Assembly (NCBI RefSeq): GCF_001485575.1
Contig: NZ_BCNB01000006.1
Span: 2,542,001 to 2,606,000, forward strand
DNA: 64,000 bases
Reading direction: 5' to 3'
DNA from: Haloarcula sp. CBA1127
GTDB taxonomy: Archaea > Halobacteriota > Halobacteria > Halobacteriales > Haloarculaceae
How positions within the stretch are numbered: position 1 is the stretch's first letter; each line of letters begins with the position of its first letter. The translations under genes and the position numbers were made by a program. Shown here piece after piece: positions 39,365 through 49,936 of this stretch. Below the pieces are notes generated by a model. It was not told the origin of the DNA. It did no database searches and saw only the letters and a list, made by a program, of their open reading frames with translations.

Positions 39365-40821
39365 ACCAGGACACACGCCAGCAGATACGCGACAACGCCC
39401 AGTACCTCCGGAACGTCCGACCGCTGGACCCCGAGGAGCTACACGAATACGTCGAGGGCCAGCCCCACCCCGCCGTCGTCAAGCAGGTGCTCCGAGAGGA
39501 AGCGTTCGACCTTGGCATCGTCGAGCAGGATGACGGGACCTTCGTGCCGGCACCGGAGGGTCGCCTGTCGGTAACGTTCGACGGCGTCGAACGGTTCCCC
39601 GACAGCTACGAACAGCAGGTCATCGACCTGCTGACGGAGTGGGGCGGACTGGAGTGGCACAGCGGTGACAGCGGTGACGAACTCCGTGAGCGTATCCGCG
39701 ACATCAAGGAGCGGTACCTCCAGGGCAAGGCCGTCGAATACGACGAACTGACCGCGCTGGGCTATGCCGTCTACCACCTGCCGGACTACTACGCCGTGGC
39801 GAAATACGTCCTCGCGGACCTCGCCGCTGACGGCCTGCTTCCGTCACAGCTTCGAGTGCTTGACGTGGGGGCCGGCGTCGGTGGCCCTGCACTCGCCCTG
39901 CGCGACCTACTCCCCGACGACGCCCTGCTGGATTACCACGCCGTCGAGCCGAGCGCTGCCGCGGATGTGCTGGAGAGCCTACTGGCAGATAGCGGCCAGA
40001 ATGTCCGCTGGGAGATCCACCGGTCGCTCGCCGAGGAATTCGACCCGGCGTCGCCGCTTGCTGGCGACGACAGCGGTGGAGCGGGTGGTGGCGATGGCGA
40101 CGACAGCGAGGGATACGACCTCATCATCTTCGGCAACGTCCTCAGCGAACTCGACGACGCGGCGGCGACCCTCTACCGGTACGTCGAGGCGCTTGCCGAC
40201 GACGGGACGTTGCTGGCGCTGGCTCCGGCCGACCGGAACACAGCCATACAGCTCCGAACAGTCGAGCGCGAGGTGGCCGATGGCGGCCCGGCGACGGTGT
40301 ATGGGCCGACGGTGCGGCTCTGGCCCCACCAGTCTCCCGACAGCGAGTCGTGGTCGTTCGACCGCAAACCGGATATCGAGGTGCCAACCATGCAACAGCG
40401 CCTCGACGACCCTGCCGGCGGAACGGGCGAGTTCGTCAACACGGACGTGCAGTTCGCCTACAGCGTCTTGCGAACCGACGGCAAGCGGATGCACGATGTA
40501 ACACCGGACCGGGGCATCCACGCGCCGATGGCCGACGCCGAGAACTACGTCACCGACCGGGTGAACTTCCTCGGGGTCAAACTCAGCCACGACCTCGCCG
40601 AACGGGAGGGTTCGAACCCGCTGTACTTGCTCGGCGATGGGAGTCAGAAGGTCGACCACTTCGCCGTGCTCACCGAAGCGTCGATACTGAACGAGGACAT
40701 CCGGAAAGCCGACTACGGCGACCTGCTGTCCTTCGAGAACGCCCTGGTCCTGTGGAACGACGACGAGGAGGCGTACAACGTCGTCGTCGACGGCGAGACG
40801 GTCGTCGATCGAGCGCGCTAG
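39361..40821 (+). CDS. Rsm22/METTL17-family methyltransferase-like protein without cysteines
   Basis: A 486-residue ribosome-assembly methyltransferase relative. The N-terminal helical part has ERYLQGKAVEYDELTALGYAVYHLPDYYAV. The SAM-binding fold is LRVLDVGAGVGGPALAL at about 160-176 with IIFGNVLSELDD. A Gly/Asp-rich insert near 240-255 is a haloarchaeal feature. The C-terminal part is beta-rich. In Rsm22/METTL17 four Cys hold a [4Fe-4S] cluster. Here that motif region reads VRLWPHQSPDSESWSF, and the entire protein has no Cys. Coupled to tyrA by ATGA overlap. Confidence 0.85.
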   Translation: MNQDTRQQIRDNAQYLRNVRPLDPEELHEYVEGQPHPAVVKQVLREEAFDLGIVEQDDGTFVPAPEGRLSVTFDGVERFPDSYEQQVIDLLTEWGGLEWHSGDSGDELRERIRDIKERYLQGKAVEYDELTALGYAVYHLPDYYAVAKYVLADLAADGLLPSQLRVLDVGAGVGGPALALRDLLPDDALLDYHAVEPSAAADVLESLLADSGQNVRWEIHRSLAEEFDPASPLAGDDSGGAGGGDGDDSEGYDLIIFGNVLSELDDAAATLYRYVEALADDGTLLALAPADRNTAIQLRTVEREVADGGPATVYGPTVRLWPHQSPDSESWSFDRKPDIEVPTMQQRLDDPAGGTGEFVNTDVQFAYSVLRTDGKRMHDVTPDRGIHAPMADAENYVTDRVNFLGVKLSHDLAEREGSNPLYLLGDGSQKVDHFAVLTEASILNEDIRKADYGDLLSFENALVLWNDDEEAYNVVVDGETVVDRAR

Positions 40822-48459: not shown

Positions 48460-48705
48460 TCAGAACTGTGCAAACTTCGCCGTGACCTCATCGATCCACT
48501 CCGGCAGGTCGCGGTCCGCAAGTGTCCCGTCAGCGTCACGGGTCGTGACGACATCAGCGATTTCGCCCTCACGCGTGATATCGAGTCGCCACACCCCGTC
48601 AGCCTCGATATCGACTCGAACGACGTCCTCCCCGACGGGCTTGATCGGTCGGATCGTTACCTCTTCTCCGCTCCTGACTTCCATTGTGTGACTATCGGCC
48701 GTCAT
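48460..48705 (-). CDS. Small haloarchaeal protein, function unknown
   Basis: An 81-residue acidic, beta-rich protein: MEVRSGEEVTIRPIKPVGEDVVRVDIEADGVWRLDITREGEI, then a helix at the end (LPEWIDEVTAKF). ATG 48705 follows GATATAACT by about 27 bases; the Met at 48684 is another start. No domain recognised. It diverges from the RNA candidate. Confidence 0.7.
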   Translation of the reverse strand: MTADSHTMEVRSGEEVTIRPIKPVGEDVVRVDIEADGVWRLDITREGEIADVVTTRDADGTLADRDLPEWIDEVTAKFAQF

Positions 48706-48824
48706 CTGGTATCTTTGAGCGCCCGACAGTAGTTATATCTCCGGGCGGAGAGTGTGCCCGTCCTGCGCTATGGCTGGTGAGCAGTGGCTTAACAAGAATA
48801 TAATAAATTGACACAAGCGCGTAG

Positions 48825-49151
48825 CCGGTACTGCGGGTGCGAACCCGCACGCAGGCAGACCATGTATGCCAGACATGGCCACGGAAATCGTGTCACCTGA
48901 ACAGCCCCAGCTATCGACACAGTCCCGTGGACATACTGCAGTCTACCCATCGACGTGCCAACCCAAGCCAGCGACACCGGGAAGTCAGAGATCCAGTGCC
49001 TCGTGTTACCGCTTCCGAGCCACACCCATTGCCCACGTTCCCTGTGTCAGGCCTCGCCGTCGGTTCCCGGCGAGGCCGTTTCGACAGACAGAGCGGCCAC
49101 GGCTCAGTTGTGACTACCGGTCGGTCTGCTGCCCACGCCAGCCAGTACTGG
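48825..49151 (+). ncRNA. Candidate structured non-coding RNA
   Basis: A 532-base stretch (48706-49237) has no protein with haloarchaeal character in any frame, but does have structure. TATA-like AATATAATAAA (48797-48807) predicts a start near 48825. There CCGGTACTG (48825-48833) can pair with CAGTACTGG (49143-49151), with one G-U, closing a 327-base unit. Inside are a stem with a GCGA (GNRA) loop at 48833-48848, GCAGACC/GGTCTGC (48855-48861 with 49123-49129), CCATGT/ACATGG (48860-48878, partly competing), and a 10-base stem GGCCTCGCCG/CGGCGAGGCC (49050-49077). No SRP or RNase P hallmarks were found. Confidence 0.45.
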
Positions 49152-49237
49152 AGAGTCGGTCTCGACAGCAGTGACTCGCCTGCCAAGCCGTCCTGAGCAA
49201 AAAGGTTATAATAGCAACCACGTAACCTTCGGATACA

Positions 49238-49507
49238 ATGTTAGGGACATCCGGAGTACTGTTCCCGGGGATGCCCGGGACGACGGAGATGATGGTCATC
49301 CTCCTCATCGCCGTCCTGCTGTTCGGCGCGAACAAGATTCCGAAACTAGCGCGGTCGACTGGCGAAGCCATGGGCGAGTTCCAGAAGGGGCGCGAAGAAG
49401 TCGAGCAAGAACTCGAAGAAATGCGCGATGGCGCTGCAGAAGGGACCGATGCGTCCACCGTGGACTCGGCCGAGTCGACCGAAACGGCGACGGAAACCGA
49501 GACGTAA
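49238..49507 (+). CDS. tatA: Twin-arginine translocase subunit TatA
   Basis: An 89-residue Tat pore component for export of folded proteins, the main route in haloarchaea; several Tat substrates (halocyanins, metal-binding lipoprotein) are in this window. It has a short N-terminus, helix TEMMVILLIAVLLFG, the FGANKIPKLARSTGEAMGEFQKG amphipathic helix, then an acidic Thr/Glu tail. GTTATAATAG (49205-49214) lies about 27 bases before ATG 49238. Confidence 0.93.
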   Translation: MLGTSGVLFPGMPGTTEMMVILLIAVLLFGANKIPKLARSTGEAMGEFQKGREEVEQELEEMRDGAAEGTDASTVDSAESTETATETET

Positions 49508-49584: not shown

Positions 49585-49658
49585 GGGCGTGTGGCCTAGT
49601 GGACCAGGGCGAGGGGTTCCTAACCCCTAGAACGCGGGTTCGAATCCCGCCACGCCCG
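49585..49658 (+). tRNA. tRNA-Arg (anticodon CCT)
   Basis: Full cloverleaf: acceptor GGGCGTG/CACGCCC (49585-49591 with 49651-49657), discriminator G49658, and the D-arm with GGCCTAGTGGACC. The anticodon stem AGGGG/CCCCT has loop TTCCTAA and anticodon CCT at 49619-49621. The T-arm is GCGGG-TTCGAAT-CCCGC. CCA is not encoded, and there is no intron. Copies of its 3' end occur downstream. Confidence 0.95.
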
Positions 49659-49936
49659 TGAAGCGAACGCAGTGAGCGAACCGGCATGGCGGGATTCTAA
49701 TCAGGGAGGTCGTGCGCAGCGAAGCGAGCACGTCCGACCGTGGTTCGAATCCCGCCACGCCCGCTTCGTGGTTTCTCGCGTCCGCTCGAAACACACTCGC
49801 GGCCGTGGCGACCTTCGCGAAACCTGCGGTTTCGCTCAGTCCCGCCACGCCCGTGCAGCGACCGAAGAGAGCGAGCCGGTATGCCGGGGTTCTAATCAGG
49901 GGGGTCGCACGCAGCAAAGTGAACACGTCCGACCGT
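49645..49936 (+). repeat. tRNA-Arg 3'-end repeats and a 97-base direct repeat
   Basis: The last 22 bases of the tRNA gene (from GGTTCGAATC to its final G, 49637-49658) are repeated exactly at 49742-49763. The last 14 bases, with 2 bases beyond, recur at 49840-49855. A 97-base unit starting in the tRNA end, 49645-49741, is repeated at 49840-49936 without gaps, with 14 mismatches by my count. Just before the third tRNA-end copy lies the palindrome GCGAAACC-TGC-GGTTTCGC (49817-49835). No protein gene is credible in 49659-50042; the remainder carries the next promoter. Confidence 0.8.

Follow-up and report, generated by a model that had tools for sequence, protein, structure and literature searches.

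The analysed stretch of Haloarcula sp. CBA1127 DNA (64,000 nucleotides, the window, to which all coordinates refer) contains a candidate non-coding RNA gene in the intergenic region between the gene of an 81-aa protein and tatA. The features of this locus are the following:

48460-48705, minus strand: gene of an 81-aa protein, divergently transcribed, without a Pfam match
48787-48812, plus strand: putative archaeal promoter CTTAACAAGAATATAATAAATTGACA, with TATA core TATAATA at 48799-48805 and identity above that of the flanks
48829-49082, plus strand: predicted non-coding RNA of about 254 nt, 5' end placed at 48825-48831 and 3' end near 49082
48833-48848, plus strand: H1, 5' hairpin GCGGGT-GCGA-ACCCGC with a GNRA loop, stem nearly invariant
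48880-48892, plus strand: H2, small hairpin CACGG-aaa-UCGUG, newly recognized here
48905-48934, plus strand: conserved segment around CCCAGCTATC-N6-GTCCCGTGGACAT, a candidate interaction region proposed from its sequence conservation
49050-49077, plus strand: H4, 10-bp 3' hairpin (GGCCTCGCCG, 49050-49059, with CGGCGAGGCC, 49068-49077), proposed terminator stem
49079-49082, plus strand: TTTC tail after H4, proposed RNA 3' end, from its sequence and its likeness to Haloferax
49238-49507, plus strand: tatA, twin-arginine translocase subunit (PF02416, E 2.9e-15), with its own promoter

The 81-aa protein is 88-99% identical among the genomes that carry the RNA. The tatA gene is apparently leaderless, its TATAATA core occupying 49208-49214 and the distance from the first base of this core to the ATG (49238) being 30 bases. 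The promoter-to-ATG stretch (49196-49237, AAAAAGGTTATAATAGCAACCACGTAA...) is nearly invariant in the aligned genomes, genus-wide and even where the upstream gene order differs, a constraint that seemingly exceeds the needs of a plain TATA box. Downstream of tatA, the last 22 bases of a tRNA gene (49585-49658) are repeated exactly at 49742-49763, and the tRNA 3' end together with the sequence that follows it forms a 97-base direct repeat (49645-49741 and 49840-49936, 86% identical); these repeated tRNA 3' ends (49585-49936) could be attachment-site debris.

That the DNA before tatA lacks a credible protein, as the original prediction had it, agrees with our results: the candidate open reading frames gave no Pfam match, and relatives about 90% identical carry one- or two-base indels that break the frame, which excludes that the block encodes a conserved protein. 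An Rfam scan, proposed together with that prediction and extended to seven relatives, rendered no family match at the region, only the neighbouring tRNA and chance matches. The archaeal SRP RNA (RF01857) and RNase P RNA (RF00373) are stable non-coding RNAs of similar size, but neither covariance model matches here, and both RNAs are encoded elsewhere in the genome (G000:C6:1758760-1759072 and G000:C6:334027-334504, respectively), which bears out their earlier dismissal. A modification-guide RNA, of the H/ACA or C/D type, would be compatible in size if it had several hairpins, and ACA trinucleotides do follow some of the hairpins; we nevertheless consider it very improbable, given the lack of an Rfam match in the region or the seven relatives, a longest complementarity to 16S/23S rRNA of 14 nt including G-U pairs (barely more than the 11-12 nt in shuffled sequences), the absence of conserved C/D boxes from the alignment, and a restriction to one clade, in which it differs from conserved rRNA guides.

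A DNA search followed by alignment located the block at one syntenic place in 14 of the 32 genomes of the genus, the named carriers being Haloarcula amylolytica, Haloarcula japonica, Haloarcula vallismortis, Haloarcula argentinensis and Haloarcula sebkhae. When these 14 carriers were used to build a covariance model covering positions 48815-48944, the model recovered the same 14 genomes with strong scores (E 7e-41 to 5e-15) and gave no credible match in the remaining genomes of the genus or in other genomes of the family (146 genomes searched). A second, weak match of this model recurs in the genus; it falls inside a sugar-binding-protein-like gene and was attributed to chance. No second copy was found in the own genome of the candidate, nor any similar sequence in plasmids and phages. 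One carrier (L010) has no H4, and a fifteenth genome (L014) retains only a truncated copy in which the promoter and the first half are lost; these losses indicate that the gene can be lost and is not strictly kept. In four genomes without the RNA (L015, L016, L018 and L019), the gene upstream of tatA encodes a relative of the 81-aa protein, about 50% identical, and has the orientation of tatA. The presence of the RNA thus accompanies a different neighbourhood.

The conserved block extends from about 48787 to about 49085 and comprises the promoter, the 5' GNRA hairpin, a variable middle and, on the 3' side, the strong hairpin with TTTC behind it. In nine diverse sequences, the mean identity between pairs, taken in bins of 15 bases, was 0.7-0.8 in the promoter, mostly 0.5-0.8 in the RNA and 0.82-0.89 in the 3' hairpin; it dropped to 0.59 in the bin 49081-49095 and was no more than 0.33-0.47 over 49096-49155. 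In comparison with two relatives (L008 and L009), identity was 0.77-0.81 in the promoter vs about 0.5-0.6 in the flanks, and 0.74-0.75 in the RNA vs 0.54-0.55 in the 3' flank and 0.49-0.61 in the 5' flank. Since conservation collapses right after H4, the 3' end of the RNA most likely lies near 49082 and not at 49151, the end originally proposed, the sequence from about 49096 onwards belonging to the most poorly conserved parts of the intergenic region. Conservation among Haloarcula genomes therefore holds for the block, but not for the part of the 327-base candidate that follows H4.

The TATA-like box reported before the RNA is present, and its core is identical to that of the tatA promoter. 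Applying the core-to-ATG spacing of tatA to this core would place the RNA start near 48829, which leaves a start at precisely 48825 uncertain; in Haloferax volcanii, TATA centroids of sRNAs are found near -29 (PMC5892119). With regard to the 3' end, intergenic 3' ends in Haloferax volcanii show a T stretch with termination at C, and hairpins have been described upstream of 503 mapped 3' ends (PMC7237163); H4 plus TTTC resembles these intergenic termini. A generic bacterial terminator scan gave no match, a result that says little for an archaeon.

These boundaries also bear on whether the block could be an alternative long 5' leader of tatA, starting at 48829 and acting in cis on the Tat subunit through read-through. 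The block is on the tatA strand and, in the carriers, always directly upstream of tatA. However, an almost invariant promoter belonging to tatA lies 30 bp before the ATG, the stretch from H4 to that promoter is poorly conserved, and other genomes of the genus have tatA without the block, so that a leader appears rather unlikely.

Local structure was evaluated over 12 sequences, pairing being expressed as the percentage of cells paired. H1, the GNRA-loop stem of the original prediction, was paired in 98.6% of cells, and one relative (L023) keeps the stem with a UUCG-type loop. H4, the 10-base-pair stem also singled out there, was paired in 97.5% of cells, with two compensated (two-sided) pairs, and is the most conserved part of the RNA. 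H2, which had not been listed before, was paired in 91.5% of cells, again with two pairs showing two-sided changes. When H1, H2 and H4 were taken together, only 0-1 of 500 shuffles came up to the real alignment in the main covariation measures, and pairing dropped to 32-47% in slid versions of these hairpins. The two-sided pairs total four over the three hairpins, a kind of count that kinship of the sequences can inflate, and the RNAalifold covariation term is about zero. A helix between CCACGG (48879) and CCGTGG (48930) was also considered; it was 88.6% paired with no two-sided change, and the local H2 was preferred, although the two could alternate. In the segment 48905-48934, many columns of the alignment (A2) are invariant or nearly so, and the exact CCCAGCTATC-N6-GTCCCGTGGACAT pattern is found in five named Haloarcula species. 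Elsewhere in the window, a hairpin at 40606-40621 (GAGGGTTCGAACCCGC) resembles H1 with two mismatches and could be a tRNA T-arm.

All the sequence elements named in the original prediction were located where it had placed them, including the closing helix (CCGGTACTG, 48825-48833, with CAGTACTGG, 49143-49151), the 3' arm of which (CCAGTACTGG) is itself palindromic, and the second long-range helix (GCAGACC, 48855-48861, with GGTCTGC, 49123-49129). It had been proposed from these that a 327-nt RNA is paired shut at its ends in a compact, riboswitch-scale fold, and the minimum-free-energy fold does contain the closing helix. Nevertheless, dinucleotide-shuffled versions of the 327 bases contain as many such helices or more (mean 3.2 vs 2 in the real sequence for helices of at least 9 bp, and mean 4.0 vs 2 for helices of at least 7 bp spanning more than 200 nt), which puts both long-range helices at chance level, and the 327-base fold exceeds that of shuffles in stability only slightly (z -2.3). 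Moreover, the closing helix was paired in 73.3% of cells, each of its pairs being broken in 1-5 of the 12 sequences, and the second helix, some pairs of which are disrupted in several relatives, in 65.0%; both fail in the divergent ones. Compensatory changes are found in H4, the GNRA stem being nearly invariant, but the closing helix is not maintained by them, and the comparison to riboswitch-scale RNAs is rejected as well. If the poor conservation of the 3' end and a z of about 0 in the middle are also taken into account, the end-closed fold is hardly tenable. Long-range helices picked by eye in GC-rich archaeal DNA are to be regarded as chance-level unless relatives support them.

Whole-RNA folding is only mildly better than that of shuffles (z -3.0 to +0.2, 12 sequences), and in none of the 12 sequences does the middle (48849-49045) surpass shuffles (z -0.7 to +1.2); the structure is a series of local hairpins joined by open linkers, and not a compact closed fold. 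It might be argued from the lack of excess folding in the middle that the block is a set of clustered, conserved DNA sites, or an intergenic remnant in slow decay, in which only promoter-like or palindromic pieces are constrained and no functional RNA is made. The identity of the middle, only moderately above that of the flanks (0.70 vs about 0.55, L008/L009), and the large deletions in two relatives would also be expected of a remnant. On the other hand, such a remnant would not readily account for the length and sharp edges of the block, for a promoter consistent in strand, or for the keeping of the H1 stem in L023 while the loop changes and the compensated pairs in H2 and H4. We regard this explanation as unlikely.

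The locus therefore probably holds, judging from the sequence comparisons, a non-coding RNA gene shorter and simpler than first proposed, and the best reading is still that of a non-coding transcript made from a promoter of its own. We favour, with some confidence, a fast-evolving small RNA gene of about 254 nt that is specific to the Haloarcula clade and stands alone in the intergenic region, because a conservation block with sharp edges fits a transcription unit, the same locus is found in 14 of 32 genomes of the genus, promoter and terminator-like hairpin are consistent in strand, H1, H2 and H4 are preserved with some pairs compensated, and frame-breaking indels, the lack of Pfam matches and a middle no more structured than shuffles all fit such a gene. 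The promoter, the hairpins, the boundaries, the non-coding character and the clade restriction are supported by evidence from the sequences. The small RNA reading is weakened by the thin covariation, since related sequences can exceed such shuffles without structure, by the partial losses in L014 and L010, and by the fact that no target stood out better than chance.

The candidate would best be placed, from its anatomy, as a new member of a loose class, the haloarchaeal intergenic sRNAs, as it lies between genes, has a conserved predicted TATA promoter of its own (48787-48812) and appears non-coding from its frame-breaking indels and lack of Pfam matches. The intergenic sRNAs of Haloferax volcanii (PMC3956466, PMC5892119) are likewise haloarchaeal, intergenic and stand-alone, with BRE/TATA promoters, and the candidate shares with them a length in the range of 50-1,000 nt, weak conservation from one genus to another and targets that are hard to predict; the likeness is one of anatomy. 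Poor conservation is typical of haloarchaeal sRNAs: those of Haloferax volcanii, which are numerous and in many cases give a phenotype when deleted, evolve fast, and 22 of the 27 tested are restricted to this one species (PMC3956466). The Haloarcula candidate, kept in 14 genomes of one genus, is more widespread than most of those tested. Methanosarcina mazei sRNA162 (PMC3510493) is thought to act on mRNAs by base pairing, and the candidate can be likened to it, by description only, as an archaeal sRNA with proposed mRNA pairing.

Transcription, exact ends, pairing mechanism and targets are what we infer from this analysis. The RNA would be transcribed from the plus strand by its own TATA promoter and would begin with the stable GNRA hairpin H1. 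Its C-rich middle would be mostly unpaired, with short stretches of conserved sequence, and the GC-rich hairpin H4 plus TTTC would form its 3' end at about 49082. By analogy with the Haloferax intergenic sRNAs, the hairpins at the two ends may shield the transcript from degradation and mark where it stops, and imperfect pairing of the conserved open stretches, such as 48905-48934, with at least one mRNA may be its mode of regulation. A search of the genome for targets rendered matches only at chance level, and those inspected fall inside open frames. The idea of leaderless mRNAs as targets, through ATGTCCACGGGAC, was also rejected, an exact-match search returning only the RNA itself.

There is also a slight chance that the RNA represents an undescribed, Haloarcula-restricted family, in which the 5' GNRA hairpin and the conserved segment CAGCUAUC...GUCCCGUGGACAU would bind a protein or a dedicated target and which may, for example, link Tat export to a regulatory signal. 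The small RNA that we favour, provided that it is transcribed, would be one shared by a group to which well-studied Haloarcula species belong, so that deletion would be a way to test its function.
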